Shown piece after piece: positions 24,270-55,376 of a stretch of 64,000 nt of DNA (within the stretch, counting starts at the first letter, position 1; every line of letters begins with the position of its first letter). This DNA comes from Sphingobium sp. BYY-5 (GTDB taxonomy: Bacteria; Pseudomonadota; Alphaproteobacteria; Sphingomonadales; Sphingomonadaceae), in NCBI RefSeq assembly GCF_022758885.1, contig NZ_JALEBH010000001.1, positions 2,759,501 to 2,823,500 of the forward strand, read 5' to 3'. Both the position numbers and the translations under genes were made by a program. Below the pieces are notes generated by a model. It saw nothing but the letters and a program-made list of their open reading frames with translations. It did no database searches and was not told where the DNA came from.

Positions 24270-24271
24270 CC

Positions 24272-29895: not shown

Positions 29896-30429
29896 CTACC
29901 GAATGACGGCGCAGGCAATCCTCTCGCCCGCACCGCCGATCGGCTGGGTCTTGTAGTCGTCCGGATTGGCGTGGATCACCAGCGCAGACCCGTCGGCGTC
30001 CCGCAGCGCGGGCCGGTCGCCGTTTCTCCCGACGGAAACCAAGGTCGAATATAGCTCCACCGTTACGCTGCCCTCGGTTCCGACAAACAAATTCGGCTGA
30101 TCCCCGGCGTCATTCGCGCCTTCGACCAGCAAGCCGTGTACGATGGGTTTCGCCGAGTGAACATGTCCGCCAGCGCGCTTGAACTCTGCGTCATCGCAAT
30201 CCGCCGTTTCATGAAAGTGGACGCCGTGCCAGCCGGGCGGCAGGCCCTTCGCTTCGATCCGAAGCAACACCCCTTTGGGCCCGTCGGTTACCGTAATCAT
30301 GCCCAGCTCATTACCGACATTGTCATATAGTGTACCGGGCCGACGTTCGGCGGCATCCGCCGGTGCTGCAGCAAACATGGCTCCCATCGCCGTCATCAGC
30401 GCCATTAGCCCCCTCGTTCCGATAGTCAT
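29896..30429 (-). CDS. sodC: Cu/Zn superoxide dismutase, in frame with the upstream Zur-like gene
   Basis: 177 residues from ATG 30429, behind AAAGGACGGGG. Signal peptide (LMALMTAMGAMFAAAPADA), then SodC: GLPPGWHGVHFHETADC with copper ligand histidines, AGGHVHSAKPIVHGLLVEGANDAGDQPNLFV with zinc ligands, LIHANPDDYK-like region (VIHANPDDYKTQPIGGAGERIACAVI). It removes periplasmic superoxide. There is no stop codon between the preceding Zur-like frame and this one, so the ribosome could also make a 337-residue fusion. Its presence in a zinc-starvation operon is odd for a zinc enzyme. Confidence 0.9.
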   Translation of the reverse strand: MTIGTRGLMALMTAMGAMFAAAPADAAERRPGTLYDNVGNELGMITVTDGPKGVLLRIEAKGLPPGWHGVHFHETADCDDAEFKRAGGHVHSAKPIVHGLLVEGANDAGDQPNLFVGTEGSVTVELYSTLVSVGRNGDRPALRDADGSALVIHANPDDYKTQPIGGAGERIACAVIR

Positions 30430-30909
30430 CGCCCCGTCCTTTCGTTTCGCTGAGGATTTGAGGTTCGCTTCGTCTCTTTGCGCACATTCCGCACAGAGCC
30501 CGGACGCTTCAACGATCGAGCGTGATGGAGAATGACCCGTAGCCCGACACAATCTTTCCAGCTCTGCCTGCAAAGCGGAAACCGAAAATCTCTGCACCGT
30601 GCGGCAACATCGGCAGATGAGGAACCCGCAACGCCCTCCTTGCGCGGGGAGATAGGCCGACAGCAGTTCGATACGCTGGACTTTGTTGCTGCAAATCAGC
30701 CGGTCGAGCACACGATAGACTTGCGCAGCGGTGATAGGCGATCCTTGACCGCTACTCCGCTCTGCGATCTCGTAGGCCGTTAAGGGCCGGTTGCTCTGCT
30801 CCAGCAGGGCCAACACCAGAGTATCGAGGATGGCCGGTCCGCGGTAAGGGCGGCGATCCCGGGGTGCGGGCAGTTCCGGTTGGCAATTGTTTACCGGCTC
30901 AGGCAGCAT
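30430..30909 (-). CDS. Fur-family (Zur-like) regulator, reading directly into sodC
   Basis: About 160 residues from ATG 30909, which lies inside the last codons of the merC-like gene. Winged-helix part: PAILDTLVLALLEQSNRPLTAYEIAER and ITAAQVYRVLDRLICSNKVQRIE. C-terminal structural zinc site: ICRCC and CAEC. The histidine-rich regulatory segment usual in Zur/Fur (HPHHGH-like) is missing; the position reads AQGGRCGF. After CAECA the frame continues through about 15 residues (QRDEANLKSSAKRKDGA) to the sodC methionine with no stop. It could be a degenerate regulator, a fused one, or a dimerisation partner for the second Zur. Confidence 0.8.
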
Positions 30910-31303
30910 GTGCCCGGAGCCGCCAGTTCATTGTGTGACCGGTGATCAGCAACAGACTGCCCGCCACGGTGATCCCGAGTTCGGCGCCTCTACCGAGGCC
31001 GGGCAGAAGCGCGACGACGAGGCAGGCCATCCCTGCGAGACCGATGACGGCGGGACGGCGCGCGCGGTGTCGCCGGTAGCCGATCCAGAACGCGGCCAGC
31101 GCCGCAGGGACGACCAGCGCCAGGGCGACATAGTGGAACGCGTCCGTCCGCGCGAACATACCGATAGCGCCTGGAAGCAACAGCAATAGCAGCGGAAGCG
31201 CGAGGCAATGCACGAGGCAGAGTAGCGAAGCGGAGACCGCCGTGCCCTCGATGACGTTTGTCCGTCGATCCTTTGCATGATCCTCTTGACCCTGTGCGTG
31301 CAT
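30899..31303 (-). CDS. MerC-domain membrane protein
   Basis: About 134 residues from ATG 31303 (a TTG at 31312 is the alternative). Four transmembrane helices; the first holds ASLLCLVHCLALPLLLLLLPG with the Cys-x3-Cys-type pair (LCLVHC) typical of MerC, a mercury/metal-binding inner-membrane protein. Outside mer operons, MerC-like proteins often accompany zinc-uptake genes. It is the first gene of the merC-zur-sodC transcript, starting about 22 bases from a Zur-type palindrome shared with the ZnuD-like receptor gene. Confidence 0.82.
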   Translation of the reverse strand: MHAQGQEDHAKDRRTNVIEGTAVSASLLCLVHCLALPLLLLLLPGAIGMFARTDAFHYVALALVVPAALAAFWIGYRRHRARRPAVIGLAGMACLVVALLPGLGRGAELGITVAGSLLLITGHTMNWRLRAHAA

Positions 31304-31324
31304 TCGACTCAAAATCCTGCTTGT

Positions 31325-31342
31325 GTGATGTTATAACGTCTC
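31325..31342. promoter_or_regulatory. Zur-type box 1, between merC-like and znuD-like genes
   Basis: GTGATGTTATAACGTCTC is an imperfect palindrome with seven of nine base pairs matching around the TTATAA centre. It closely matches the sites at 38009 and 41523. It lies in the divergent gap between minus-strand merC-zur-sodC and the plus-strand receptor gene, so one repressor could control both. Confidence 0.75.
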
Positions 31343-31381
31343 TTATTAGGCCCCACATCTCAAGCGCAAAAGGGGCCAATC

Positions 31382-33421
31382 GTGAAAATTCGTATCTTCC
31401 TTCTCTCCGCCGTCTCGATCCCGGCCATGACTCCTCATGCGGCATTCGCCGCCCAGGCGGGTAGCATCGCAGATCGCGACATCGTGGTGACCGCCTCGGC
31501 GCTGGAGCAGAAGGCGGACGAGACCGCGACGCCGGTGGTCACCTTGTCCGGCGAGGATTTGGTTCATCGCCGCCAGGCGACGTTGGGCGATACGCTCGCC
31601 GGCCAGCCCGGCATCAGCTTCGACAACTTCGGCGGCGGCGCCAGCCGCCCGGTCATTCGCGGCCAGACAGCGCCGCGCGTCCAGTCTTTGACCGATGGCG
31701 CGAACATTCAGGACGCCTCGGCGATCTCGCCCGATCACGCCGTCACCACGGAGCCATTGCTTCTGCGTGGTATCGAAGTGCTGCGCGGTCCCGCCGCCCT
31801 TCTCTATGGCGGCGGCGCGATCGGTGGCGCGATCAACCTGCTCGATGACAAGGTGCCAACGGCGATCCCCGAGGGCGGTATCTCCGGCGTTGCGGAAGGC
31901 CGTCTGGGCACCGCCGACAAGGAACGCTCGCTTGTCGGTGGATTGACCGCTGGTGTCGGCCCATTCGCCTTTCACGTCGAAGGCGTCCATCGCAGCTCCG
32001 ACGACTACCGAGTGCCGAAGCGCTTCGGCGACCGGCATGTCGACGGTTCCTACAATGATACGTCCACCTTCAGCGTCGGCGGCTCGTGGATCGGTGACGG
32101 CGGCTATCTGGGCGTCGCCTATACGCGCCAGCGGAGCGAATATGGCTTGCCCGGTCATGCTCACGAATATGAGGACTGCCATCCACATGGGAGCAGCCTG
32201 CACTGCGGCGGCCATGATGATCATGAGGAAGACCATGATCACGGGCACGAGGGTGAGCACGAGGAAGTGCCTTTCGTGAAGCTGCGGAGCGAACGTTTCG
32301 ACATCCGCAGCGAATATCGCGACCCGCTGCCGGGCTTCGAGAAGGTGCGCTTCCGCATGTCGTTCACCGACTACGAGCACGACGAGGTCGAGGAGGACGA
32401 AGTCGCAACAACCTTCAAGAACAAGGCGCACGACATCCGGTTAGAGCTGACCCACAAGTCGATCGGCGGGCTGCGCGGTGTCTTCGGCGTCCAGCATTCG
32501 GAAAGCGATTTCAGCGCGCTCGGCGAGGAAGCCTTCCTGCCTGAGAGCGAGACCGGCAATACTGCGCTCTTCCTGATGGAGACATTGCAGGCAGGGCCGA
32601 TACGGTTTGAGCTCGCCGCGCGGCACGAATGGCAGCGCATCAAGACCACGCTGAATCGGCGGGCCGAGCACAATCCGTTCTCGATTTCGGGCGCGGCCGT
32701 TTGGGACATCAATGGAGATTATTCGTTGGCGCTGTCCCTGGCGCGCTCGCAGCGCGCGCCCAACGTCCAGGAACTTTATGCCCGAGGGGTTCACCTCGCG
32801 ACTAACACCTATGAGCTGGGCACTGCCACGCTCGGCAAGGAGACGGCGAAGTCGATCGATCTCACCTTCCGCAAGACCACCGGAGCGACCACCTTCACCA
32901 TCGGCGCCTATCATCAGCACTTCGACAACTATATATTCGCGGACACGCTCGACCAGTTCGAGGACTTCCGCCTGATCCGCTACACGGCAGCGGATGCAAC
33001 CTTCACCGGCATCGATGGCGAAGTCCGCCATCAGTTCACGTCCGACTTCGGCGTGTCGGTGTTCGGCGATTATGTCCGCGCCAAGCTGAAGGACGACCTT
33101 GGCAACCTTCCGCGCATTCCCGCCGGGCGCCTCGGTGGGCGCGCCGATGGCAAATGGGGAGCGCTGTCGGCCGACGTGGAATATTACCACGTCTTCGAGC
33201 AGGGCAAGGTGGCGTCCTTCGAGACGCGCACGCCGGGCTACGACATGTTCAACGCCACGCTGGCCTACAAGCTTGAGCTGGGGCCGAAGGCCGACGCCGA
33301 GTTGTTCGTGCGGGCGAACAACTTGACCAACGATCTCGCCTTCAACCATGCGTCGTTTATCAAGAATGCCTCACCGCTACGCGGACGCAACTTCACGTTC
33401 GGCTTGCGAACAGCGTTCTGA
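31382..33421 (+). CDS. ZnuD-like TonB-dependent zinc receptor
   Basis: 679 residues from GTG 31382, behind AAAAGGGGCC. Signal peptide ends AAFA; TonB-box-like DIVVTASA; plug with TLGDTLAGQPGISFDNFGGGASRPVIRGQ and IEVLRGPAALLYGGGAIGGAINLLD. An extracellular loop near 260-300 is very rich in His, Asp and Glu (HEYEDCHPHGSSLHC, then HDDHEEDHDHGHEGEHEE), as in neisserial ZnuD, where such loops capture zinc. The last strand is RNFTFGLRTAF. It is preceded by Zur-type box 1. Confidence 0.93.
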   Translation: MKIRIFLLSAVSIPAMTPHAAFAAQAGSIADRDIVVTASALEQKADETATPVVTLSGEDLVHRRQATLGDTLAGQPGISFDNFGGGASRPVIRGQTAPRVQSLTDGANIQDASAISPDHAVTTEPLLLRGIEVLRGPAALLYGGGAIGGAINLLDDKVPTAIPEGGISGVAEGRLGTADKERSLVGGLTAGVGPFAFHVEGVHRSSDDYRVPKRFGDRHVDGSYNDTSTFSVGGSWIGDGGYLGVAYTRQRSEYGLPGHAHEYEDCHPHGSSLHCGGHDDHEEDHDHGHEGEHEEVPFVKLRSERFDIRSEYRDPLPGFEKVRFRMSFTDYEHDEVEEDEVATTFKNKAHDIRLELTHKSIGGLRGVFGVQHSESDFSALGEEAFLPESETGNTALFLMETLQAGPIRFELAARHEWQRIKTTLNRRAEHNPFSISGAAVWDINGDYSLALSLARSQRAPNVQELYARGVHLATNTYELGTATLGKETAKSIDLTFRKTTGATTFTIGAYHQHFDNYIFADTLDQFEDFRLIRYTAADATFTGIDGEVRHQFTSDFGVSVFGDYVRAKLKDDLGNLPRIPAGRLGGRADGKWGALSADVEYYHVFEQGKVASFETRTPGYDMFNATLAYKLELGPKADAELFVRANNLTNDLAFNHASFIKNASPLRGRNFTFGLRTAF

Positions 33422-33433
33422 GGATCAGCAATG

Positions 33434-33470
33434 GGCCGGAGAGGCGGATCGATCCCCTGCCTCTCCGGCC
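33434..33470. terminator. Bidirectional hairpin between convergent genes
   Basis: GGCCGGAGAGGC (33434-33445) pairs perfectly with GCCTCTCCGGCC (33459-33470), a 12-bp stem with a 13-base loop. It lies between the ends of the ZnuD-like receptor gene and the convergent methyltransferase gene. No U-tract follows, so termination efficiency is uncertain. Confidence 0.55.
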
Positions 33471-33497
33471 GTCAGCGCGGATGCCGGAAGCCATGGC

Positions 33498-34199
33498 TCA
33501 GGCGTAGCTGACCCAGCCCCGCCAGGTGAAACCCGCATAGAACAGTTCGACATCGGAAAAGCCCGCTTCGCGCAGGATCGCCTCGTCCTCTTCCGGGCTA
33601 AGCATTGGCACATGGGCATCGACGGTCTCGCACATCTTCTCCACCTGATCTGAGGGCGCACCTGAGGCCAGCGCGAAGGCCGCATAGCGTGACAGCCAGC
33701 GCGCGCGCTGCCCGTCGTCCTGCGGGAAGCTCGAATGCGCCGCGACGAAAGCCGCGCCCGGTTTGAGCCGGCGATGCAGCTCTCGCACTGTGCGGGCTCG
33801 CTCCGTGGGCTCGAGAAAATGCAGGGTCAAAAGGCAAGTTGCGCCGTCGAACGGTCCTTCGGGCGCGTCATCGATATAGCCTTCGCAGAAAGTCACGCGA
33901 TCCGCATCGGGGCCGAGCACGCGCGCAGCCTCGTCCAGCATAGCCTTCGCGGGATCGACCCCTAGAAATGTCCAGCCAGGCTGTGCCTGCGCCATGGCCC
34001 GCAACTCGAGCCCCCCACCTGCGCCGAGAACCAGGACGCGTGCATCCCTCGGCGCGCGCTCGGCCAGGGCGATCGTCGTCATCCGATGCAGATCGGCGAA
34101 GCCGGGCACGAACAATTGCGGGCCGTCGCCGTAGCGCTTCGCATGTTCGGGGTCGTTGAAGGACGCGAGCAGCGACTGCATCGTGACATCATGCGGCAT
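33498..34199 (-). CDS. Class I SAM-dependent methyltransferase
   Basis: 233 residues. Motif [17 protein letters not shown], then [14 protein letters not shown] and [38 protein letters not shown], the usual order of a small-molecule methyltransferase. Its first bases overlap the end of the Rrf2-type regulator by 11, so the two are co-transcribed and probably co-regulated. The substrate is not evident. Similar Rrf2-methyltransferase pairs occur in many proteobacteria. Confidence 0.85.
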
Positions 34200-34653
34200 G
34201 AATGGTCTCCAGATCGAAGGATTGCTTGTGCGCGGTCAGCCGCTCGTGGAAATCGGCGCCGAGTGCGGCGAGCGTGACTGCGCCGAAGCGTGACAGCAGC
34301 AGGGCTTCGGCGTCGTCGAAGGCGCGGCCGAGCGCCGCATTGACGGCCTGCTCGACAAGGCAGCCAGGCGACTCCGTCCTATTACCGATCGCCAGCAGCG
34401 AAGGTTCGCCCAGCGCCTCGTAGACATCGCGCAGGGTGAGCGCCGAAAGATCGCAGGCGAGCGTCCAGCCACCGCCATGCCCCTTCTCCGAGCGCACATA
34501 GCCGCGATCACGCAGGCCCGCCATGATCCGGCGCACCACCACCGGGTTGGTCAGCATCGCTCTGGCCAGCATTTCGGATGTAGCCGGCCCATCATGCTCG
34601 GCCAGGTGCAGCAGCGCATGCAGCACACTCGACAATCGGCTATCACGTTTCAT
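34189..34653 (-). CDS. Rrf2-family transcriptional regulator
   Basis: 154 residues. Winged HTH typical of Rrf2: [63 protein letters not shown], shown here only in part as the N-terminal half. Only one cysteine is seen (SPGCLVEQ), so an iron-sulfur cluster like that of IscR/NsrR is unlikely; it is closer to YwnA-type regulators. An inverted repeat TAACatcaGTTA abuts its start codon and could be its own operator. It is followed by the methyltransferase gene it probably controls. Confidence 0.85.
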
Positions 34654-34654
34654 G

Positions 34655-34666
34655 TAACATCAGTTA
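34655..34666. promoter_or_regulatory. Putative operator of the Rrf2 gene
   Basis: TAACATCAGTTA has perfect 4-base inverted arms and sits two bases upstream of the Rrf2 start codon (34653), within wider arms TTTCA (34648) and TGAAA (34672). The position fits autorepression. Confidence 0.35.
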
Positions 34667-34708
34667 TTGCGTGAAATGCGAAGAGTCAACGCGCACTGTA
34701 TCCTGCAG

Positions 34709-35533
34709 CTATTCCGCTGCTGGTTGCGCCGCGATCACATAGTCGTGCCCGTGCCGAAGCGCTCCGTCCCGCATGATTTGCTCGATGGCTCGGGCGCGCA
34801 GTTCCTCGCCTTCAGCTCTCAGGGCGCCAGCCAGCGCACGGTTTGCGAGCTTCGCCAGACGCGGGCCGCACATGTCGATCTGGCTGTTTACGAACCGCTC
34901 CTTGTAGCGGATCGGGAATCGCTTGGCTGCGGTGACCTGGAACCCCGACGCCTCGAGATGATCGACGACCCACTGCGCCGGATATTCGCGATAGGGGGTG
35001 TCTCCCGTCAGCAGCATGCAGGCATCGCGGAAGCGGCCGATCTCCCGGATCAGGTCTCCGGCCGGCGTGTCCGCCGCTGCATTCACATAGGGCTCAAGGC
35101 CGACGATGTAGAGACGGCGACCGACGAGTGGCCGCAGCCGGACAAACATCTTGTGCTGGAAATAAGGCGCGAACCCTTCGACCGCGCCAATCAGGTAATC
35201 GGCCAGAACCGTGTCATAGCGTTCGCCCGCGAGCAGTGTGGGGGCAGCCCAGTTGCCGAGCACGATGCGATCCTGCGGGCGGCGAGCCGCCTCAACGGCG
35301 TCGCGAACCTGAACGGCATGGCCTTCTGCTCCGGTCACGGCGGTCCAGCGGTTCGTCGCGAGGTTCGATATCCATTCGATCGAGTTCGTGCCCGTTCCGG
35401 CATCGAGAACGCTACCCCATGGGATTTCACGCTGAAGGCCTTCGATATAGCGGAACAGCGCGGACGCCTTTCGCGGCTTAGACAACTCAGCCCGGTCGGG
35501 CATTTCTGAGCCTGTAGAAGATGCCGCTTTCAT
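34709..35533 (-). CDS. SAM-dependent methyltransferase-like protein in the zinc ABC operon
   Basis: Up to 274 residues. A motif I-like VLDAGTGTNSIEWI, then AVTGAEGHAVQVRDAVEAA, DTVLADYLIGAVEGFAPYFQ and LYIVGLEPYV suggest a Rossmann methyltransferase fold. Its start lies within the end of the DUF3299 gene (47-base overlap with ATG 35533; an alternative ATG at 35503 starts MPDRAEL). By position it belongs to the ABC-DUF3299 transcript under Zur-type box 2. No substrate can be named. Confidence 0.7.
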   Translation of the reverse strand: MKAASSTGSEMPDRAELSKPRKASALFRYIEGLQREIPWGSVLDAGTGTNSIEWISNLATNRWTAVTGAEGHAVQVRDAVEAARRPQDRIVLGNWAAPTLLAGERYDTVLADYLIGAVEGFAPYFQHKMFVRLRPLVGRRLYIVGLEPYVNAAADTPAGDLIREIGRFRDACMLLTGDTPYREYPAQWVVDHLEASGFQVTAAKRFPIRYKERFVNSQIDMCGPRLAKLANRALAGALRAEGEELRARAIEQIMRDGALRHGHDYVIAAQPAAE

Positions 35534-35996
35534 CCTGCCCCGTCAGCTCCAGCGTGCCGGTGATGACGGTCGGGTTCATCTCGTCGACCCTGACCGGAAC
35601 CGCGGCATAAACCTCGATGAACTGATTAGGCATCGCGTGCATATGGAAAGGGCATCCTGGTGGGTAGGCGAGCAGTACGAAATGCTTTTGTCGGGCGCCA
35701 TTCTCCAACGGCATCATCCACCCTGCCACCTTGATTTGCCTGCCAGCGAGCGCCTGGATAGCAGGCGGGAAGGCCGGTTTCGTGTAGATCATACGAGTCT
35801 TGGGGTCGGTGCGGTCGTTGAGCCTCGTGGTTTCCAATAGCTTCCATGACGTGCCGCCGGGCGGTGTTTTCGCCGGCTGCCAGACATCCTGCACCGGGGC
35901 CTTTCCGCTCTCCTGCATCGCAGCGGGCGCGGGACCGGACATTAGAAAGACTACGCAGAAGACCGCACTCAGGGATTTCAAAAAACGAGGCTTCAT
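35487..35996 (-). CDS. DUF3299 exported protein, zinc-regulon associated
   Basis: 169 residues with a signal peptide (LKSLSAVFCVVFLMSGPAPAA). The DUF3299 pattern is visible: IQALAGRQIKVAGWMMPLE, FVLLAYPPGCPFHMHAMPNQFIEVYA and TVITGTLEL. Proteins of this family are encoded with FtsX-type ABC transporters in zinc-regulated clusters (the Vibrio zrg genes are the example I recall). It would act in the periplasm. The permease gene is four bases upstream. Confidence 0.82.
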   Translation of the reverse strand: MKPRFLKSLSAVFCVVFLMSGPAPAAMQESGKAPVQDVWQPAKTPPGGTSWKLLETTRLNDRTDPKTRMIYTKPAFPPAIQALAGRQIKVAGWMMPLENGARQKHFVLLAYPPGCPFHMHAMPNQFIEVYAAVPVRVDEMNPTVITGTLELTGQDESGIFYRLRNARPG

Positions 35997-36000
35997 GGAA

Positions 36001-37272
36001 TCAGCTTGCCCTTGCCAGTGTCGCGGCGAGATCGATGCGGAAAACGCGGAGCGCAGGGACCAGCGCAGCAGTGAGTCCGATCGCGATCACTGCCCCGAGG
36101 ATCGCAAGCTCGCCGCGATGCGGTTGCCATGGCTGCAAGCCCAATTCGCTCAGTGCCGTGAAACTCCGCACTGCCGCAGCGAGAGCGACATGGCCGAGAA
36201 GGACGCCAAGCACCCCGCCGACGAACGCCATCGCCAGCCCCTCGGTCATGACCGTGCCGAATATCCGCGCGTGGCTCGCGCCCATGACACGCAGCAGGGC
36301 GAGATCGCCTTCCCTCGCGCTCGCGGCATTGAGCAAGGTGACGAAAATCGATAGGCCGCCGACGGCCGCAAGCAGCCAGGCGAACAGCCTTGCGCCATCG
36401 ATGCCCGCGCCCAAAAGCGACAAGAGCCGCGTGGTCTCGATCGCCGGAACCGCCGCCTGCAAATCGGTCTGGCGGTTGACCATCGACGGAATTCGAACGG
36501 CACCCGCCGCATTACGGTAGCGCACAAGCAGGGCGGTAACCTCAGGCGCCAGTTGGCCGCGGCCATCGGTGATTGCGGCGGTCTTATCGTCGTGTTCGGC
36601 ATGAGCCTCATGCTCATGGGCTTCCTCGCCACGGTCATGGTCCTGATCGTCCTGGGCAATGCCGTGGACGTCCCACACGGTCTCGACCGAGGTCAGGATC
36701 AGCCGGTCGATCACCGTACCAGTGGGTTTCAATATGCCAATCGTTGTGAAGGGATGGGCATGATGTTCGCCGGCTCCCTCGCCGTCGCCCAGGCCGTGAC
36801 TACCGATGAACTTCTGGCCAAGCCCGGCACCGAGCCTGGCCGCCACCGTTGCGCCCATTACCGCTTCGCCCTGCTTCTCGAACATGCGTCCGCTCCCCAG
36901 CTCAGCACCGTAGAGCCCGGCATAGGAGGGCTCGGTGCCAACGATCCGGTAGCCCCGGAAATTGTCGCCGAGCGCGAGTGGCACGACCTGCGCCACCGCC
37001 GGGTCACGCCGCAGCAGGTCGATGCTCGCCAGCGGGATGTTCCCGGTCGGCTGATCCATCTGGTAGATGCTGGACAGGATGAGCTGGAGGGGCGAGCCCT
37101 TGGCGCCGACCACGAGATCGATCCCCTGCGCATTGCGTTCGAGCCGCTCGGCCAGCTGCGTCGACGCCAGCAGCAGGATGGCCAGCGTTGCGACCGCGAG
37201 CGCCAGCAACAGGATATTGAGACCGGTGACCGACCGCCGATCCTGCATGTAGGCAAAGGCAAGACCGAGCAT
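36001..37272 (-). CDS. FtsX/MacB-type ABC permease with a His-rich loop
   Basis: 423 residues: an N-terminal helix (LNILLLALAVATLAILLLAS), a periplasmic MacB-type domain and three C-terminal helices (LFAWLLAAVGGLSIFVTLLNAA, MAFVGGVLGVLLGHVALAA, LAILGAVIAIGLTAALVPAL). The periplasmic domain has a metal-binding-looking run of His/Asp/Glu (DQDHDRGEEAHEHEAHAEHDD, around 210-230). Such permeases usually move envelope substrates rather than ions, but the loop and the zinc context point to metal handling. It overlaps the ATPase stop by one base. Confidence 0.87.
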   Translation of the reverse strand: MLGLAFAYMQDRRSVTGLNILLLALAVATLAILLLASTQLAERLERNAQGIDLVVGAKGSPLQLILSSIYQMDQPTGNIPLASIDLLRRDPAVAQVVPLALGDNFRGYRIVGTEPSYAGLYGAELGSGRMFEKQGEAVMGATVAARLGAGLGQKFIGSHGLGDGEGAGEHHAHPFTTIGILKPTGTVIDRLILTSVETVWDVHGIAQDDQDHDRGEEAHEHEAHAEHDDKTAAITDGRGQLAPEVTALLVRYRNAAGAVRIPSMVNRQTDLQAAVPAIETTRLLSLLGAGIDGARLFAWLLAAVGGLSIFVTLLNAASAREGDLALLRVMGASHARIFGTVMTEGLAMAFVGGVLGVLLGHVALAAAVRSFTALSELGLQPWQPHRGELAILGAVIAIGLTAALVPALRVFRIDLAATLARAS

Positions 37273-38006
37273 CAGGCCGCTTCGCTCACAGCGCTGCCGA
37301 GCGACAAAGCGTTCGGAATGAATGCCCGCAGGCGGTGATCGTGCGTAGCGACGAGCAGCGTCGTGCCCCGTTTCCTGGCCGTATCCAGCAGCAGGTGCGC
37401 GATCGTTTCCGCATTCAAATCGTCAAGCGCGCTCGTCGGTTCGTCTGCGACCAGCAGATCGGGCCGGCCTACCAGAGCACGAGCAATGGCGGCGCGTTGT
37501 GCTTCGCCCTGGCTGAGTTGGCGCGGCCGCGCGTCGGCACGATGTGCGATACCGAGCGTGCCAAGCAGGCCCTCGATCTCGGCATCATTCGTACTGCCAT
37601 GGCTCAGTCGCTGCGCCAGGCGCAGATTCCTGCGGATGCTGAGGGCGGAGACCAGACGCAATGTCTGGAAGATGATCCCGATCCGCCTGCGGCGCAGATC
37701 GTCGCGTGCGGCGCCGCCAAGGCCCGTCATGGGTTCACCGGCAATGACGACCTCTCCCGAATCCGGCGTCAACAGCCCGGTAATGAGGTTGATGACCGTG
37801 CTCTTCCCCGATCCGGACGGCCCAAGCAGCAGAAGATGCTCGCCAGGCGCGACGCTGAACGTCAGATCTCGCAAAACGGGAGCGGCGCCATAAGCTTTGG
37901 ATAAGCCGCGCACTTCGAGGACATCGACGGCTCCTTCCCCTCCACTGGAGCCGCCATGTCGCATCTGGAAGGGTTCGTATCTTGAATTCACACGCAGGTC
38001 GGTCAT
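37272..38006 (-). CDS. LolD/MacB-type ABC transporter ATP-binding protein
   Basis: About 244 residues from ATG 38006 (the internal ATG at 37964 is another option). Complete ATPase: Walker A LLGPSGSGKSTVINL, Q-loop GIIFQTLRLV, signature LSQGEAQRAAIARAL, Walker B LLVADEPTSALD and ATHDHRL. The LolD/FtsE-like type matches the FtsX-type permease that follows. Zur-type box 2 begins only three bases upstream of this ATG, so a repressor there would block the promoter or the ribosome site region directly. Confidence 0.88.
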   Translation of the reverse strand: MTDLRVNSRYEPFQMRHGGSSGGEGAVDVLEVRGLSKAYGAAPVLRDLTFSVAPGEHLLLLGPSGSGKSTVINLITGLLTPDSGEVVIAGEPMTGLGGAARDDLRRRRIGIIFQTLRLVSALSIRRNLRLAQRLSHGSTNDAEIEGLLGTLGIAHRADARPRQLSQGEAQRAAIARALVGRPDLLVADEPTSALDDLNAETIAHLLLDTARKRGTTLLVATHDHRLRAFIPNALSLGSAVSEAA

Positions 38007-38008
38007 AA

Positions 38009-38026
38009 GTGACGATATAACATCTC
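38009..38026. promoter_or_regulatory. Zur-type box 2, between the zinc ABC operon and DUF1826 gene
   Basis: GTGACGATATAACATCTC; read on the other strand it is GAGATGTTATATCGTCAC, close to box 1. It lies in the divergent gap between the minus-strand ABC operon and the plus-strand DUF1826-S46-zur operon and could serve both. Confidence 0.7.
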
Positions 38027-38052
38027 TATCTTGAAATGGACAAGACACGATC

Positions 38053-38739
38053 ATGGCGCTGACCGAACTACCAGAACGGGTCGCAGGCAATCAGGTTGAT
38101 CTGGACGTCAGGGTAGCACCTGCAGTCCATGTTTCCTGCCCAACAGCCCTTCGCCAAATTCACAACAGGGATACGGCACTGACGGTCTGGCGGCGGAGCC
38201 TTTCCGATGATGTCGACGCGGAACTGGCAGGTCTCGTACTGGGTGAAGTCGACGACATACTCTTCGCAAGCGAGACTGGCGCGCTGGAGACAGCGCTGCC
38301 CGGCGCCATGGAGCAAGCCGGTTATCCCGGCCTTCCCGCCCTCACGGCCGACATCGCCATGCTCGCGCGGCAGCACGCGGCGGTCACGGGTGATGCCAAG
38401 ATCAGGATCAGACTCGAGGTGGTGGAAACCGACGCCTGCCGGAAGTTCCATTCCGACTATGTGACGCTCAGGACGATCACCACCTATCTGGGTGAGGGAA
38501 CACAGTGGATCGAGGTAAAAGCCCGGGACATGGCCGGCCTTTCCGGCGAACCCGAGATCCGGCAACTTGGTGTGGGCGACGTCGGCATGTTCAAGGGGCG
38601 ATTGTGGCAGGAGGCTCCTACGATCCTGCACCGCTCGCCGCCGATCGGAGATACTGACGCGCAACGGCTCGTGCTGGTGATCGACCCGGCACCGGATGAA
38701 GATGAGAGGGCGATCAGATTGGAAGAAAAATGCGCGTGA
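38053..38739 (+). CDS. DUF1826 domain protein
   Basis: 228 residues. Core stretches TALTVWRRSLSDDVDAELAGL, RIRLEVVETDACRKFHSDYVTLRTITTYLGEGTQWI and LGVGDVGMFKG. HSD and HRSPPI supply conserved His residues (FHSDYV, LHRSPPIG) that recall a cupin-like or oxygenase-like metal site, though this is a guess. DUF1826 genes are commonly found in zinc-responsive clusters with COG0523 GTPases. ATG 38053 is 27 bases after Zur-type box 2. The next gene starts within its last codons. Confidence 0.82.
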   Translation: MALTELPERVAGNQVDLDVRVAPAVHVSCPTALRQIHNRDTALTVWRRSLSDDVDAELAGLVLGEVDDILFASETGALETALPGAMEQAGYPGLPALTADIAMLARQHAAVTGDAKIRIRLEVVETDACRKFHSDYVTLRTITTYLGEGTQWIEVKARDMAGLSGEPEIRQLGVGDVGMFKGRLWQEAPTILHRSPPIGDTDAQRLVLVIDPAPDEDERAIRLEEKCA

Positions 38740-40955
38740 AGTGGAGCGTCCGGATCGTCGCAGGTTGCGCGTTTGCCGCACTTGCCTCCCCCGCCACGGC
38801 CAATGAAGGCATGTGGATGCCGCAGCAGGTGAAGGACGTCGGGGCTGCGATGCGTGGCGATGGGCTCCAGCTCGATCCGGCATCGCTCGGCCGCTTCGAT
38901 GCGCCGCCGCTCAACGCCATCGTCTCGCTCGGCGGATGCTCCGCCTCTTTCGTCAGCCCCGAGGGGTTGGTCGCGACCAATCACCACTGCGTGCTGGGTT
39001 CCATCCAGTACAACAGCAAGGCGGGCCAAGACTATCTGACCAATGGCTTTCTGGCCAAGAACCACGGCGAGGAGTTGCCCGCCGTGCCGGGCACGCGGGT
39101 CTATGTGATCGAGGATCTGCGGGATGTGACGAGCGCCATGCTCAAGGGTGTGACCGCGAAGCTGGAGGGCCTTGCCCGCTACGAGCGGCTCGACGCCAAT
39201 CGCAAGGCGCTGATCGCAGAGTGCGAGAAGCAGCCCAATCGCCGCTGCGACGTCAGGCCCTATTATGGCGGGGCATCCTATTATCTTCAGCAGCAGCTAG
39301 AAATTCAGGATGTCCGGCTGGTTTATGCCCCTGCACAGGGAATCGGCAATTTCGGTGGCGACACCGACAACTGGATGTGGCCGCGCCATACCGGTGATTT
39401 CGGATTCTACCGCGCCTATGTGGCGCCCGATGGTTCCTCGCGTCCCCATGCCGCCGACAACGTGCCCTATCGTCCGAAGAGCTGGTTGAAGATAGCACGC
39501 GAGGGCGTGAAGGAAGGCGACTTCGTGATGGTCGCCGGCTTTCCGGGCACCACCAATCGCCTGCGAACGGCCGAGGAAGTGCGGTTCAACTTCGCCGAAT
39601 ACGAGCCGCTCTGGCAGCGGCTGCTCGCCGACTATGCCGCTCAGATCAAGCGTGCGACGGCCGGCGACCGCGAGGCTCAGATCCGCTATGCCTCGATCCT
39701 CCAGGGCGCCGAGAATTACGAAAAGAAGCTGGCGGGCGACCTCGCGGGTGCCGATGCGATCGGCCTTGACGCGCGCAAGAATGCCGAAGAGGACGCCTTC
39801 CGCGACTGGGTCGCGGCCGACCGCGCACGCCAGACGCGCTATGGCGCAGCGATCGAAGTGCTGGACGCGGTGGTCATCGAGAACAACCGGGAATCGCTCA
39901 AGGGCCTGCGCCAATCACTTCTCAATCGTGCGCAACTCCTCTCATCGGCGCGCACCCTCTACCGCTGGGCGAGGGAACGCGAGAAGCCTGACGCTGCCCG
40001 GGAAAACGGCTATCAGGATCGCGACCGCAGGCTGATCGCCGACCGGTTGACGCAGGTCGAGCGGCGGTTCCTGCCCAGCGTCGATCGCAAGCTGTTCGAG
40101 GCCGCGCTCGAGGAATATCGCCAGTTGGAGCCGGCCGACCGGGACGCGCGGTTCGAGACGGCGCTTAGCGAGATCGGCCTCGACCGGCTCTATGCCGGTA
40201 CAAGGCTAGGCGACGCCGCCACGCGGCTTGCCTGGCTCGACAAGCCGGCGTCCGCATTCGAGGCGTCCGATGATCCCTTCATCAAGCTGGCTGCGGCGCT
40301 CTATCCCGGCGACATCGACAGCGAGCGCAAGGAAAAGGATCGCGCCGGGCGCACGCAGGCAGCCCGCTCGGCCGCCATGCAGGGGTTGCTCGCCTATCGG
40401 GCTTCGATCGGTCAGCCCTCGTATCCAGATGCCAATGGCTCGCTTCGCCTGACTTGGGGCAAGGTGACAGGGCGCACGCGCGACGGTCAGATCTGGACGC
40501 CCTTCACCACCGCCGAGGGTCTGCTCGCCAAACATACCGGCAAAGGCGAGTTCGATGCGCCCGATGCTGCGGTCGCCGCAATCCGCGCCAGGGACTATGC
40601 TCCCTATGTTTCGGAGGAGCTGAAAACGCTGCCCGTCGACTTCATGTCGACGGTCGACATCACCAATGGCAATTCGGGTTCGGCAACGCTGAATGCGCGC
40701 GGCGAGTTCGTTGGTCTTGCCTTCGACGGCACGCTCGATGGGGTGATTTCCGACTGGGCTTATGCGGCCGATCGCAACCGCACCATCCATGTCGATAGCC
40801 GCTTCATGCTCTGGACCATGGACAAGGTCGATGGTGCGCACCGGCTGCTCGAGGAGATGGGGTTACGGCCGGCGCCAAGGCTCCTGAACCGATCGATGGT
40901 TGGTTTTCGCTTCGCGGTTCTTGAGGGGCAGGCTGTGGCGGTTCATAGGAGTAGG
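38730..40955 (+). CDS. S46-family dipeptidyl peptidase, in frame with a following Zur
   Basis: S46 serine exopeptidase of about 720 residues from ATG 38730 behind GGAAG: signal peptide (VAGCAFAALASPATA), chymotrypsin-like halves with His in LVATNHHCVLGSIQ, Asp in FGGDTDNWMWPRHTGDF and Ser in TNGNSGSATLN, and the family's usual end MLWTMDKVDGAHRLLEEMGL. S46 enzymes (DPP7/DPP11) remove dipeptides in the periplasm. Instead of stopping, the frame runs on through about 35 residues into a Fur-family domain, giving an 898-residue frame to 41426. It overlaps the DUF1826 gene by 10 bases. The end given here is the base before the internal Zur start. Confidence 0.85.
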
Positions 40956-41426
40956 ATGGCTCACACACCCGATGCGCATCTTGCCCTGAAGGATTCGTCG
41001 CTCCTTGATGCGGCGCGCACGGTTCTGACTGCCGACGGCGAGCAATGGACCGAGATGCGCGCCCATGTCTTCGAGATACTCGCCCGGACTGGTCAGCCGA
41101 TCAGCGCCTATGAGGTGGCCGAGCAACTGAGCACGATCATGGGCCGGCGGATCGCACCGAACAGCGTCTATCGGATCCTCGACCTGTTCGTCGCGCGCAA
41201 TCTGGCGCTTCGCGTCGAGAGCCAGAATGCATTTCTGGCGAACGATCATCCGGGCTGTGTCCACGACTGCATCTTCCTGATCTGTGACATGTGTGGTGCG
41301 ACCACGCATATGGACGACGACAAGGCCGCTCAGACCGTTCGGAAAGCGGCAACCCGGAGCGGCTTCCAGGCCACACGGCCGATCATCGAGGTTCGCGGCA
41401 AATGCGGCGCCTGCGCGGCCAGTTGA
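40956..41426 (+). CDS. zur: Fur-family zinc uptake regulator (Zur)
   Basis: 156 residues from an internal ATG at 40956 with AGGAG four bases upstream, so it can be made separately from the S46 frame in which it lies. Winged helix: WTEMRAHVFEILARTGQPISAYEVAEQLS and RIAPNSVYRILDLFVARNLALRVE. Metal sites: NDHPGCVHDCIFLICDMCG and the terminal CGAC; CDMC and CGAC form the structural zinc site and the His/Cys cluster before it fits the sensor site. With zinc bound it should repress the palindromes at 31325, 38009 and 41523. It is the better Zur candidate of the two here. Confidence 0.85.
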   Translation: MAHTPDAHLALKDSSLLDAARTVLTADGEQWTEMRAHVFEILARTGQPISAYEVAEQLSTIMGRRIAPNSVYRILDLFVARNLALRVESQNAFLANDHPGCVHDCIFLICDMCGATTHMDDDKAAQTVRKAATRSGFQATRPIIEVRGKCGACAAS

Positions 41427-41433
41427 CCTGATC

Positions 41434-41458
41434 TGGCCCTTCTACCGTTGAAGGGCCA
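41434..41458. terminator. Hairpin after zur
   Basis: TGGCCCTTC (41434-41442) pairs with GAAGGGCCA (41450-41458) around a seven-base loop, eight bases after the zur stop. No U-tract follows. It separates the DUF1826-S46-zur operon from the next Zur-type promoter. Confidence 0.5.
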
Positions 41459-41522
41459 TCGGGCGCGGTCCGACCCAAATGGCTGACGCTGTTCCTTGAC
41501 TAACCGCTTCTTGCAATTGTAT

Positions 41523-41540
41523 GTGACGTTATAACGTAAC
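41523..41540. promoter_or_regulatory. Zur-type box 3, upstream of the COG0523-hisI-COG0523 operon
   Basis: GTGACGTTATAACGTAAC, eight of nine base pairs of the palindrome matched; the best of the three sites. It ends 14 bases before the GTG start of the first GTPase. Confidence 0.78.
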
Positions 41541-41554
41541 ACACAGGAGTTCGC

Positions 41555-42712
41555 GTGGGCCTTATCCTTCGTGGCGACCAGTCGCTCATCCCTATCTCGG
41601 TGCTCACCGGCTTCCTGGGGAGCGGCAAGACCACCGTGCTGAACCGGCTCGTGCGCGATCCCGCCATGAGCCGGGCGCTGGTGGTCATCAACGAGTTCGG
41701 CGCGGTCGGGCTGGATCATGACCTGGTCGCTCGTTCGGACGAGGATCTCGTGGTTGAGATGATGGGTGGCTGCTTGTGCTGCACCATCCGCGGCGACCTG
41801 GTGCGCACCCTGCGCGATGCGCCCTTCCGCTTCGCGCGTGATGGCAAATGCTGGTTCGACCGCCTCGTCATAGAAACCACCGGCCTCGCCGACCCGGCGC
41901 CGATCCTGCACACGCTGATGACCGACGACCATTTGCAGACGCTCTACCGCCTCGACGGCGTGATCGCGACCGTCGATGCCGCGACCGGCATGGCGACGCT
42001 CGATGCGCAGGAGGAATCGGTAAAACAGGCGGCGGTCGCCGACCGGCTGCTGCTGACCAAGACCGATATCGCGTCCGACGCCGACATTCGGGCGCTGGAG
42101 GCACGGCTGCGGACGCTCAACCCCGCCGCGCCTATCATCAGGACGACGAATGGCGAGGTTACGGCGGAGCGACTATTCGATGCCGGGATCTACAATCCGG
42201 CCACCAAGAGCGTCGACGTCCAGCGCTGGCTGAATGCCGAGGCATATGAAGACGATCACCACCACAACCATCACCATGACGTAAACCGGCATGATGATCG
42301 CATCCGCGCGATCTGCCTGACCTTCGACATGCCGCTGAAGGATACGGCCTTCGACCGCTGGATCGGTATCCTCACGACCTTCAAGGGACCGGACGTGTTG
42401 CGGATCAAGGGCATCGTCAACATCGAAGGGCTGGACAAGCCGCTCGTCATTCACGGTGTTCAGCACGTCCTGCACACGCCGGTCGCGCTCGACGCCTGGC
42501 CGAGCGAGGATCGTCGCACTCGCATGGTGTTCATCGTCCGCGACATGGACGAAACCGATCTGCGCGGCACGCTGACGCTGATGACGCTGGGGCTGGAGAA
42601 TTTCGCGCTCCAGGGCGATGACGGTTTCAATCTCGGTACAGCACCGGGACTGATCCCCGATCGTCCTGAGCCAGCCATGGGCGGATATGACGGTTGGCGT
42701 GGCGCATCATGA
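41555..42712 (+). CDS. COG0523/CobW-family GTPase (metallochaperone), zinc regulon
   Basis: 385 residues from GTG 41555, behind AGGAG. G3E GTPase: Walker A LTGFLGSGKTT, VVINEFGAVGLDHDL, the metal-binding CxCC in GGCLCC, ETTGLADPAP and LLTKTD (the NKxD variant TKTD). The C-terminal CobW_C domain is preceded by the histidine run DDHHHNHHHD. These proteins deliver zinc or other metals to client enzymes using GTP. Its stop overlaps the HisI start (ATGA), so HisI may be a client or a substitute made when zinc is scarce. Confidence 0.92.
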   Translation: MGLILRGDQSLIPISVLTGFLGSGKTTVLNRLVRDPAMSRALVVINEFGAVGLDHDLVARSDEDLVVEMMGGCLCCTIRGDLVRTLRDAPFRFARDGKCWFDRLVIETTGLADPAPILHTLMTDDHLQTLYRLDGVIATVDAATGMATLDAQEESVKQAAVADRLLLTKTDIASDADIRALEARLRTLNPAAPIIRTTNGEVTAERLFDAGIYNPATKSVDVQRWLNAEAYEDDHHHNHHHDVNRHDDRIRAICLTFDMPLKDTAFDRWIGILTTFKGPDVLRIKGIVNIEGLDKPLVIHGVQHVLHTPVALDAWPSEDRRTRMVFIVRDMDETDLRGTLTLMTLGLENFALQGDDGFNLGTAPGLIPDRPEPAMGGYDGWRGAS

Positions 42713-43194
42713 CGGCGACCTCGTCCATGTTCGCTGAGCGCCTGTCGATCGAGCAAATCGAGCTGGGTGATGACCTGGCGCCCCGTTTCGATGTGGAGGG
42801 CCTGTTGCCGGCGATCGTCGTCGATGGCGCAAATGGCCAGATCCTGATGCTCGGGCAAATGAGCGCGGAGGCGCTGCAACTGACCATTGCCACCAGGCAG
42901 GCGCACTTTTGGTCGCGCAGCCGGCAGAGGATCTGGCGCAAAGGCGAGCATAGCGGCTTCATACAGACAGTCGAACGGATGCTGGTCGATGACGATCAGG
43001 ACGCCGTCATCCTGTCCGTGCGCGTGGATGGACCGGGAAGCTGCCATGTCGGATTCCGCTCCTGCTTCTATCGCGAGATTGATCTGGAAAGCACCGATCG
43101 TCCGCAAGCAGTCCGGCTCCGGCGGATCGAGGCCGCACCCGCCTTCGATGCCGAGACCGTCTATGCCGGCCTGCCCAACCCGACGAAATTGTGA
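42709..43194 (+). CDS. hisI2: HisI-like phosphoribosyl-AMP cyclohydrolase paralogue lacking one zinc cysteine
   Basis: 161 residues from ATG 42709. HisI opens the purine ring of phosphoribosyl-AMP in histidine synthesis and normally needs zinc held by three cysteines. The family blocks are visible: [54 protein letters not shown] and [12 protein letters not shown]. The usual first cysteine, in a DCDxD motif, is Asp here (VDDDQD), while the later CH..C pair is kept. HisI paralogues (HisI2) in zinc-starvation operons are known from comparative genomics of COG0523 neighbours. It lies between two COG0523 GTPases. Confidence 0.88.
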
Positions 43195-43238
43195 GGCCGC
43201 TGCCGACCGGCACCGTCCCTGGATTGAAAGAGGTCAAC

Positions 43239-44465
43239 ATGCTTGCGACACCTGACAAGCGACTGCCCGTCACCGTCCTTTCCGGCTTCCTCGGCGCCGG
43301 CAAGACCACGCTCCTCAACCACATCCTCGCCAATCGCGAGGGCAAGCGCGTGGCGGTGATCGTCAACGACATGTCCGAGGTGAACATCGACGCCGATCTG
43401 GTCCGCGGCGGCGACGCCGCGTTGTCGCGAAGCGAGGAAAGCCTGGTCGAGATGACCAATGGCTGCATCTGCTGCACCTTGAGAGACGACCTCCTGAAAG
43501 AGGTTCGCGCACTCGCGGAAAGTGGCCGGTTCGACTATCTGGTGATCGAGAGCACCGGCATCTCCGAGCCATTGCCGGTGGCGACCACCTTTTCCTTCCG
43601 CGACGAGGCGGGCCTCTCGCTTGGTGACGTTTCGCGGCTCGACACCATGGTAACGGTGGTCGATGCCATCAACTTGCTGAAGGATTATTCGAGCCAGGAT
43701 TTCCTGGCCGACCGGGGGGAGTCGCTCGGCGAGGACGATACACGCAGTCTTGTCGGACTACTGGTTGAACAGATCGAGTTTGCCGATGTGGTGATCGTCA
43801 ACAAGGCGAGCGCCGTGACGCCGGATCAGCTCGCCGTCGTCAAGAAGCTGGTCGCCTCGCTCAATGCCGACGCGAGAATCCTTACCTGCGATCATGGCGA
43901 GGTTTCGCTCGACGCCATTCTCGACACGAGGCTGTTCGATGAACAGCAGGCGGCGCGGCATCCGCTATGGGCCAAGGAACTCTACGGCTATGCCAACCAT
44001 CAGGCGGAAACCGAGGAATATTGCATCGAGAGCTTCGTCTATCGCGCGCGCCAACCCTTCGATCCAGCGAAGTTCCACACGTTCCTGATCGACGGCGGTC
44101 TCGATAATGTCGTGCGCGCCAAGGGGCATTTCTGGCTGGCCACGCGGCCCGGCTGGGTCGGCGAACTAGCGGTGGCCGGTTCCCAGACGATGACCTCCCG
44201 AATGGGGCGGTGGTGGGCAAGCATTCCGAAGAACCAATGGCCCGATGATGATCGCTTCGAGCAATTCGTTGCCGGACATTGGGACAGCATTTGGGGCGAC
44301 CGGCGACAGGAACTGGTGTTCATCGGCATCGGCATGGATGAGGCCCGTATCCGCAGCGGTCTTGATACCTGCCTCTTGCCGGTGCGCGTTTTCACGCCGG
44401 AACTGTGGATGGGGCTGCGCGATCCGTTTCCTTCCTGGGGGGAAGTCGTGCCCCAGATGACATGA
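43239..44465 (+). CDS. COG0523-family GTPase, ZigA-like zinc chaperone
   Basis: 408 residues from ATG 43239 with AGAGG upstream; a GTG frame opens earlier at 43191 but lacks family sequence. G3E motifs: Walker [33 protein letters not shown], CxCC in [26 protein letters not shown] and VNKAS. The C-terminal CobW_C part includes FHTFLIDGG and [10 protein letters not shown]. This longer type with the [10 protein letters not shown] stretch matches ZigA/YeiR-like proteins induced by zinc limitation. Last gene of the Zur box 3 operon. Confidence 0.92.
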
Positions 44466-45791: not shown

Positions 45792-46013
45792 TCAATTCCC
45801 CTGCGCGCGATGCCGGCGAAAGGCCCGGTCGGTTTCCATGAACCGGGCCAGCATCGGCGCGACCAGCTTCTCAGGTGGAACCGGCGATCCCCCGGTCTCG
45901 GCTGCGAGCGCGGCGGCATAAGCGACAAGATCGCGGTGGAGCGGCGCCGGCACCTCCACGGTGAGTTTGACCGGCCGGTCGTCGGCGAGCGGCCCGAGCT
46001 TCAACTTCGTCAT
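45792..46013 (-). CDS. DUF2274 protein, last gene of the trb operon
   Basis: 73 residues: MTKLKLGPLADDRPVKLTVEVPAPLHRDLVAYAAALA, with a short C-terminal tail ending FRRHRAQGN. The beta-strand plus helix arrangement recalls ribbon-helix-helix DNA-binding proteins, but no function is established for DUF2274. It starts inside the trbI stop codon, as in many sphingomonad and Tn4371-like trb operons. Confidence 0.85.
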   Translation of the reverse strand: MTKLKLGPLADDRPVKLTVEVPAPLHRDLVAYAAALAAETGGSPVPPEKLVAPMLARFMETDRAFRRHRAQGN

Positions 46014-47212
46014 CGTGTCGCTCCAACAGGTTCGAGCACCAGGTCGCGGGTCAGAACGACCCGCAACGGATGGCCCGGCCTAATGGTGAGCGTCGGCTGC
46101 ACGTTCAATTGCCGCCGCACGATCTGCTGGCCGGTCTGGTTGATGGTGTCCTGCGAGCCGCGGCGCAGCGCGCGGGTGAGGTCGTCGTCCTCGTCCGCGC
46201 CCAGCTCTGTACCAACGCCGAGGAGCGTCGAGATGGCGGCAGCCTTGAGCAAATTGCCCCAATGCTGGTTCACGCGGTCCTGCAAGCCGGCGAACCCGGC
46301 TGCGTCCGCGCCGGGCTGGCGCTCGAGAACGATCGAGCGCCCGTCCGGCAATATCAGCCGATCCCAGGCGAGCAACACGCGGGGCTGCCCGGCGGCGATC
46401 TCGCTGTCATATTCTCCGATCAGCCGCGCGCCCTGCGGGATGAGCAGGATACGCCCGGTCGGACTGTCATAGACGTTGGCCGTCACCTGGGCGGTGATCT
46501 GGCCGGGAAGGTCGGAGCGGATGCCGGTGATGAGCGCGGCCGGGATGATGCTGCCGGCCTGCACGACATTGGGCGATGGCGGAGCTGCAAGTCGCTCGAC
46601 GCTCACCGTGCGCTGGCTCGACGCTTGCGCCATGAAGGCCCGCTTGGCGGCCTGGTCTCCCTGCGCCGTTTCGGCGGGCTGGGCGGCGGCGTCCGGCGCG
46701 GCGGCAGCAATGTTCGGCAGCGAAGGGATGGCTGCGGATGCGCCTCCGCTCCCTCCACCGAGGAACACGCCGCTCATGCGCGCGGCATCGCGCTCCTGCT
46801 GGGCGCGCTGGCGGGCGGCTTCCTCGGCCTGAGCGCGAGCGTCGACCTGGGCGCCGACCGGCGGGACCGGCACATTCTCGCCGCGCTGCTGGGCCGAGAC
46901 AATCGGGCCGCCGAGGTCGCCGGGAAGCGGCGGGCCGAGGCGCGGCGCCTGGCCATAATCCTTCGGCCCCGACGTAATCGTCTCGGCCGTGGCGCGGCTC
47001 TCGGTGCTGTAGAGTTCCTTCGCTTCCTTCTGGCCTGCCGGCTTGAGCGCATAGATCAGCGAGCCGCCGATGCCGAGGCCGGCGACGACGCCGATGACGG
47101 CCAATGCCTTTCTCGACAGGCGCATGACACGGGGCGGGTCGCCGCGAAGCTGAAAGGCTTGCGGATCGGAGCGCGGTGCCTGCGGCGCGGCCGGTTCGAT
47201 GGGATCGGTCAC
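46010..47212 (-). CDS. trbI: TrbI (VirB10-like) conjugal transfer protein
   Basis: 400 residues. One transmembrane helix near 35-55 (ALAVIGVVAGLGIGGSLIYAL), a Pro/Ala/Gln-rich periplasmic linker, and a VirB10-type C-terminal domain (VQAGSIIPAALITGIRSDLPGQITAQVTANVYDS, LIPQGARLIGEYDS, IVLERQPGADAAGFAGL). It spans both membranes of the type IV secretion channel and forms its core with TrbG. Overlaps trbG by four bases. Confidence 0.95.
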   Translation of the reverse strand: MTDPIEPAAPQAPRSDPQAFQLRGDPPRVMRLSRKALAVIGVVAGLGIGGSLIYALKPAGQKEAKELYSTESRATAETITSGPKDYGQAPRLGPPLPGDLGGPIVSAQQRGENVPVPPVGAQVDARAQAEEAARQRAQQERDAARMSGVFLGGGSGGASAAIPSLPNIAAAAPDAAAQPAETAQGDQAAKRAFMAQASSQRTVSVERLAAPPSPNVVQAGSIIPAALITGIRSDLPGQITAQVTANVYDSPTGRILLIPQGARLIGEYDSEIAAGQPRVLLAWDRLILPDGRSIVLERQPGADAAGFAGLQDRVNQHWGNLLKAAAISTLLGVGTELGADEDDDLTRALRRGSQDTINQTGQQIVRRQLNVQPTLTIRPGHPLRVVLTRDLVLEPVGATR

Positions 47213-48905: not shown

Positions 48906-48908
48906 GGA

Positions 48909-50596: not shown

Positions 50597-50604
50597 AGCC
50601 TGCC

Positions 50605-55373: not shown

Positions 55374-55376
55374 CTA

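Follow-up and report, generated by a model that had tools for sequence, protein, structure and literature searches.

A candidate Zur-type zinc-starvation regulon apparently carried by an integrative conjugative element next to guaA in Sphingobium sp. BYY-5

Bacteria usually meet a shortage of zinc with core genes that answer to a single core Zur. Among the described systems nearest to the locus reported here, which were compared through the available portions of PMC4176598, PMC2770081, PMC4219657, PMC6103462 and PMC5786701, the Zur of Caulobacter crescentus has the core GTTA-N5-TAAC, and its direct targets include the ABC-2 type znuGHI and TonB receptors as well as zrpW, the last probably with a COG0523 gene (PMC4176598); one Zur-regulated COG0523 cluster is placed on a Klebsiella plasmid by a figure legend of PMC2770081, and the E. 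coli Zur structure yielded RNNNYRNNRYNNYRNNNY as the skeleton for two dimers, with Arg52 as part of the salt bridge of dimer-dimer cooperativity (PMC4219657). A stretch of 64,000 nucleotides from Sphingobium sp. BYY-5 (the window; C1:2759501-2823500, in a genome of 4,700,298 bases on two contigs, C1 and C2) was analysed here, and its zinc locus probably represents a zinc-starvation regulon of the Zur type that forms cargo of an integrative conjugative element, itself inserted next to guaA.

Zur-type control of three operons is well supported by the sequence, through the fit of the sites to published boxes, the gene types, the Zur-type protein encoded among them and the recurrence of the sites in relatives. 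The three 18-base sites given by the original prediction were confirmed by direct reading and are placed as proposed there, two in divergent gaps and one before the COG0523-hisI-COG0523 genes; a weaker box at 21969, the mobile-element setting and two stop-free gene junctions were absent from that prediction, which is correct in substance but too narrowly framed. The sites are as follows:

31325..31342, Zur-type operator 1, in the MerC / ZnuD-like divergent gap, GTGATGTTATAACGTCTC
38009..38026, Zur-type operator 2, in the ABC-ATPase / DUF1826 divergent gap, GTGACGATATAACATCTC
41523..41540, Zur-type operator 3, before COG0523-hisI-COG0523, GTGACGTTATAACGTAAC
21969..21986, weaker candidate operator 4, before the TonB1-ABC-ABC-ABC-TonB2 genes, GTTA-N5-TAAC with one mismatch, E. 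coli skeleton at 7/8 positions

The pattern GTGANGNTATAAC, which was derived from the three sites themselves, has three matches in the window (0.00 expected from shuffles) and, by pattern search, exactly three in the whole genome, all of them operators 1-3; with one mismatch 19 genome matches were observed, against 65 for the same pattern read backwards. The published Caulobacter core is independent of these sites, and operators 1-3 each lie within one mismatch of it. At this tolerance the core has six matches in the window, including an intragenic one at 23611 and two that overlap at operator 3, and none of 100 shuffles reached six (mean 1.97, standard deviation 1.40). Exact GTTA-N5-TAAC occurs at three places in the genome, namely operator 3, upstream of one MerC gene and upstream of one TonB receptor, while GTKAYNNNRTAAC occurs at eight, comprising operators 1-3, the position 23 bp upstream of that unlinked MerC gene, the upstream region of the TonB receptor and three intragenic places; its backward control gave 20 places per strand. 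Each operator can be read as a pair of 13-bp boxes with an offset of 5 bp, and in operator 3, where the two boxes overlap, the second (41528) is an exact GTTA-N5-TAAC. All three operators match the E. coli two-dimer skeleton at 8/8 positions, a fit found for 241 of the 63,983 window 18-mers. As for the description of the sites as matching palindromes, the shared pattern stands, but only operator 3 is near-perfect (complementary pairs of 7/9, 6/9 and 8/9 in operators 1, 2 and 3, respectively), and it was the sole match of the three in a search for perfect 18-bp palindromes with up to three mismatches.

The count of up to 13 genes behind these operators is fair, and a Zur-type protein (Zur2) is indeed encoded in the set, which comprises MerC, the Fur-like/SodC frame, the ZnuD-like receptor, the ATP-binding cassette (ABC) ATPase, FtsX, DUF3299, a 274-amino-acid protein, DUF1826, S46, Zur2 and HisI between two COG0523 proteins; genes for Rrf2 and a methyltransferase lie further along the minus-strand run. 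The features to which the argument refers are:

21960..24269, plus strand, TonB-dependent receptor TonB1, candidate TTG start at 22038, true start probably downstream of the box
24191..24988, plus strand, ABC-2 ATPase, znuG-like, 50% identical to the ATPase beside a candidate box on C2
24985..26379, plus strand, ABC-2 permease (DUF3526), znuH-like
26232..27872, plus strand, ABC-2 permease (DUF3526), znuI-like, true start downstream
27875..29803, plus strand, TonB-dependent receptor TonB2
29896..30909, minus strand, Fur-like domain, signal-like segment and Cu,Zn superoxide dismutase (SOD) in one frame
30899..31312, minus strand, MerC-domain membrane protein
31382..33421, plus strand, ZnuD-like TonB-dependent receptor with a His-rich stretch
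35487..35996, minus strand, DUF3299 protein
36001..37272, minus strand, FtsX/MacB-type permease
37272..38090, minus strand, ABC ATPase, listed start beyond operator 2
38053..38739, plus strand, DUF1826 protein
38730..41426, plus strand, S46 peptidase (~38730-40893) running stop-free into Zur2, one open frame
40956..41426, plus strand, Zur2, Zur-type regulator, Shine-Dalgarno-like AGGAG before its own ATG
41555..42712, plus strand, COG0523 GTPase 1
42694..43194, plus strand, HisI paralogue, DDDQD replacing DCDxD
43191..44465, plus strand, COG0523 GTPase 2

The receptor at 31382 is called ZnuD-like because its score against NF038289 (672.8 bits, over 670 of 679 residues) is below the cut-off of 950, and since the listed start of the ABC ATPase lies beyond operator 2, its true start is probably at 37913-38006. 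With the weaker box at 21969 and the five genes behind it, the zinc set may span 21.9-44.5 kb; given these additions on the left and the lack of any match to the ZnuA family in the genome, the set can hardly be called complete. A second ABC-2 set adjoins a candidate box on contig C2. Looser candidate boxes (2-3 mismatches to an 18-bp pattern) were noted at this second set and at a TonB receptor on C1 (L065:7844-8581, L067:8115-10295), and the candidate box C2:372078, which lies in front of a TonB receptor with a GntR-type neighbour, was judged by eye to be doubtful as to a zinc target.

Recurrence of the boxes was assessed by placing the zinc proteins of the window with tblastn on 23 related loci, namely 3 plasmid loci (35 records) and 20 stretches from 19 of 44 other DUF1826-matching genomes, a box being counted when it had at most one mismatch to GTTA-N5-TAAC and lay between 150 bp upstream and 30 bp downstream of an inferred start. 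Boxes were observed at 29 of 60 zinc-gene starts (17 distinct boxes in 15 of the 23 loci), where some genes are counted twice as both COG0523 queries matched one gene, versus 7 of 325 other starts in the same loci; perfect boxes were found at 10/60 and 0/325, respectively, and random windows gave a mean of 1.04 with a box per 60. In locus L114, whose ZnuD is 86% identical, the MerC/ZnuD gap carries GTGACGTTATATCATAAC, with the skeleton at 8/8 positions and a perfect second 13-bp box, and a perfect box is also present upstream of DUF1826. Five further loci from the genus were not pooled with the 23, and two of them have a box at COG0523. The relatives of the window genes come from Sphingobium, Novosphingobium, Sphingomonas and Sphingopyxis; DUF1826 is present in 6 of 94 genomes of the genus, our own included, the other five copies being 43-48% identical. 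Among 74 plasmid records, all of them partial, none covers most of the locus, and a scan of genome contigs with Zur2 returned two loci, neither of them a copy of the zinc set.

Four Fur-family loci were found in the genome, and the assumption of one repressor is not supported, as a second Zur-type protein (C1:1439293; the genus Zur) is 57% identical to Zur2. This type was detected in 36/36 sampled relatives of the same genus, at 53-58% identity to Zur2, while the relatives of Zur2 itself are 77-92% identical (P0001-P0010); in a midpoint-rooted tree, Zur2 belongs to a clade of 30 rows (support 99/96) that is separate from the 30 genus rows. Zur2 has the Fur-family fold (PF01475, 30.5 bits in the whole frame, cut-off 23.1), keeps the structural CxxC pairs, and has 7dh7 and 4mtd (E. 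coli Zur) as relatives in the PDB. Both Zurs share nearly identical helix-turn-helix segments, APNSVYRILDLFVA.N, together with HPGCxHDC, so both could, from these residues, read the same operators; at the positions that we take to be sensor ligands in E. coli Zur, two differ in the Zurs here, and HPGCxHDC is common to both. An altered DNA specificity of Zur2, considered from the GTGA that replaces GTTA, was dropped because of the nearly identical helix-turn-helix segments and because GTGA-type halves occur in related loci such as L118, L082 and L130 (other strand). Elsewhere on C1, an exact GTTA-N5-TAAC box lies 23 bp upstream of an unlinked MerC gene (L078:1501-1922, C1:3130522; Pfam MerC 85.8 bits), which is a likely target of the genus Zur.

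Several observations weigh against a Zur regulon at this locus. No sigma-70-type promoter was matched at operators 1-3 (region: 1 found versus 2.8 expected); the box is absent by the same rule in 8 of the 23 related loci, and the one counted in locus L120 is poor; of the five further genus loci, two are without a box and one has a perfect box ~700 bp from DUF1826. Zur2 reached 54.5 bits against the NCBIfam Zur equivalog PRK11639, short of the cut-off of 167, and for this reason is termed Zur-type and not a member of that equivalog, and the position of E. coli Zur Arg52 is Ser in both Zur2 and the genus Zur.

That the genus Zur alone acts on the operators, with Zur2 as a passenger, is a rather unlikely explanation. 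The passenger status would follow from the open frame that Zur2 shares with a presumed exported peptidase, and it agrees with the presence of the genus Zur in every sampled relative of the genus, with the finding of no other joined S46-Zur protein among 509 candidates, and with relatives such as L114, where boxes are present and the fetched stretch contains no Zur2. However, Zur2 retains its helix-turn-helix, HPGCxHDC and CxxC pairs, has close relatives, and is preceded by the Shine-Dalgarno-like sequence at its own ATG, by virtue of which it is likely translated separately from S46. A close S46 homologue in L080 (79% identical) ends at the junction point, and the continuity of the two genes possibly arose from the loss of a stop or from a sequencing error. 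This homologue (L080:8911-11082) lies on a Mesorhizobium plasmid near maturation genes for ribosomally synthesised and post-translationally modified peptides, the zinc set being absent in the stretch shown.

The Zur-type zinc locus appears, from its neighbourhood, to be the left cargo of an integrative conjugative element of ~63.0 kb (C1:2780913-2843880), a size deduced from the copies of a short repeat. Its parts are:

46010..59753, minus strand, conjugation module with TrbI, TrbG, TrbL, TrbE, TrbB, TraG and an RlxS-type relaxase
21413..21427, left copy of a 15-bp direct repeat of the guaA 3' end, with the right copy at C1:2843866, outside the window

TraG, TrbB, TrbE, TrbL and TrbG exceed their NCBIfam cut-offs, and an integrase-type frame is present at the far right, beside the guaA 3' end. 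The stop codon of guaA marks the exact start of the repeat, whose left copy is located just left of TonB1. An attachment site at a tRNA was dropped in favour of guaA; ARAGORN detected tRNAs neither in the window nor in its flanks. Loci of guaA were returned for 30 of 41 genomes, 29 besides our own, and among these 29 same-genus loci guaA abuts a homologue of window 7.7-9.4 kb in 12 and sequence like the integrase end of the island in 7, with L165 belonging to both groups and 11 loci to neither; such occupied and unoccupied sites in relatives mark the 3' end of guaA as a hotspot of insertion within the genus. Excision and transfer of the element are predicted from these parts. Some of the parts speak less clearly for such an element, since TrbI is above the Pfam cut-off only and below that of NCBIfam, the relaxase scored 574 bits against RlxS (cut-off 850), the integrase stays below its NCBIfam cut-off, its frame being divided between two loci, and the 15-bp repeat taken by itself falls short of significance (E 0.21).

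It is unlikely that the left end lies elsewhere and that the zinc genes, instead of being carried by the conjugative element, entered the chromosome in an earlier insertion. Window 9.4-21.4 kb, further left, is itself inserted accessory DNA with transposase genes, so that the site took up DNA more than once, and a repeat of 15 bp could arise by chance; against this, the repeat begins exactly where guaA stops and just left of the first zinc gene.

The second stop-free junction joins a Fur-like domain to SodC. The Fur-like domain keeps its CxxC pairs and lacks the sensor motif HPGCxHDC, and a hydrophobic stretch (19-residue mean of 1.38 in the window) with an AxA-like motif lies upstream of the SOD domain and is equally compatible with a signal peptide and with an anchor. 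Three database proteins (325, 340 and 331 amino acids; 77, 66 and 57% identical, respectively) carry both Pfam domains, with linkers that vary in length and are always in frame; because the search was restricted to lengths of 0.55-1.75 times that of the joined protein, Fur-like proteins standing alone were outside its scope. The ordinary reading is two products from one frame. It is improbable that the frame yields a single membrane-crossing protein, in which a cytoplasmic Fur-type DNA-binding domain, itself unable to sense zinc, would be tethered by way of the signal-like segment to a periplasmic SOD with an altered zinc site, as a one-component regulator of the mobile zinc set that reads periplasmic metal or superoxide directly.

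It is very unlikely that the operators belong to another Fur-family protein, either Fur or the SodC-joined Fur-like domain, and not to Zur. The genome does hold four Fur-family loci, and a Fur-like protein stands beside MerC or DUF1826 in loci without a Zur2 match (L081, L120, L122, L127 and L130); yet the Fur-like domain lacks the HPGCxHDC present in both Zurs and differs in its helix-turn-helix, and the box fits published Zur boxes and also precedes the unlinked MerC gene. Chance or AT-rich promoter sequence, brought to mind by TATAAC-like cores that resemble promoter elements and by a pattern fitted afterwards, is hardly credible as the source of the likeness among the operators, given that 4.7 Mb hold no further exact match and that the boxes are enriched in relatives and against shuffles.

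Two enzymes of the set are possibly zinc-sparing isozymes, judging from their aligned residues. Most typical HisI enzymes carry DCDxD; the island HisI has DDDQD, with Asp at the position of the Cys, whereas the genome's other HisI and 1zps (DCDGD) have DCDxD, and DDDQD also occurs in a 69% identical HisI of a genus relative (L173). The island SodC, at 253 bits against NF047632 (cut-off 250), has Asp, shared by P0121, P0122 and P0124, where the genome's other SodC and the solved chains shown have His; we take this His to be a zinc ligand, and the full set of zinc ligands is thus not present.

Under the proposed mechanism, zinc-loaded Zur (the genus copy, Zur2 or both) would occupy the operators when zinc is sufficient and would repress MerC, the Fur-like/SodC frame, the ZnuD-like receptor, the FtsX-type ABC set, DUF1826-S46-Zur2 and COG0523-HisI-COG0523, and perhaps the TonB-ABC-2-TonB genes too. 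Upon zinc depletion the repressor is predicted to be released, and receptors, ABC proteins, GTPases and the possibly zinc-sparing HisI and SodC would be made; release would also raise Zur2, a predicted autoregulation by negative feedback.

With the Caulobacter crescentus Zur regulon, as far as the available part of PMC4176598 describes it, the locus has in common the GTTA-N5-TAAC boxes, the ABC-2 type znuGHI, the TonB receptors and a COG0523 gene (zrpX there); the Caulobacter targets are scattered on the chromosome, whereas most candidates here are clustered on an apparent mobile element, in the company of a second Zur, DUF1826, an S46 peptidase, HisI and SodC. With the Zur-regulated COG0523 clusters of Haas et al. 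2009 (PMC2770081, in the portion available) it shares COG0523, DUF1826 and HisI paralogues near Zur sites, but the Zur-linked HisI paralogues there keep zinc-binding residues, while in the island HisI the Cys aligned with 1zps is Asp. The E. coli Zur box is fitted by all three operators, and the salt-bridge arginine is the point of difference (PMC4219657, in part). The Sphingomonas parapaucimobilis plasmid locus L081 shares a Fur-type repressor, MerC, two COG0523, DUF1826, a peptidase, a TonB receptor and SOD, with a box in the same divergent gap, and differs in having no Zur2 match, another peptidase and a Fur-like gene not joined to SOD. In the open-access literature (titles and abstract openings, among the matches listed), neither an integrative conjugative element with a zinc set that includes a Zur nor a joined Fur-SodC protein was found. 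A whole kit for scavenging and sparing, with operators and a second Zur, seems to ride a conjugative element, which raises the questions of whether a newly arrived regulator acts together with the resident Zur or competes with it and whether zinc thrift spreads as accessory DNA among soil and water bacteria, and the changes in HisI and SodC, each from a presumed zinc ligand to Asp, make zinc sparing directly testable. Set beside the known systems, the locus is ordinary in its regulatory logic; what is unusual is the mobile form in which a regulon of a familiar type is packaged.

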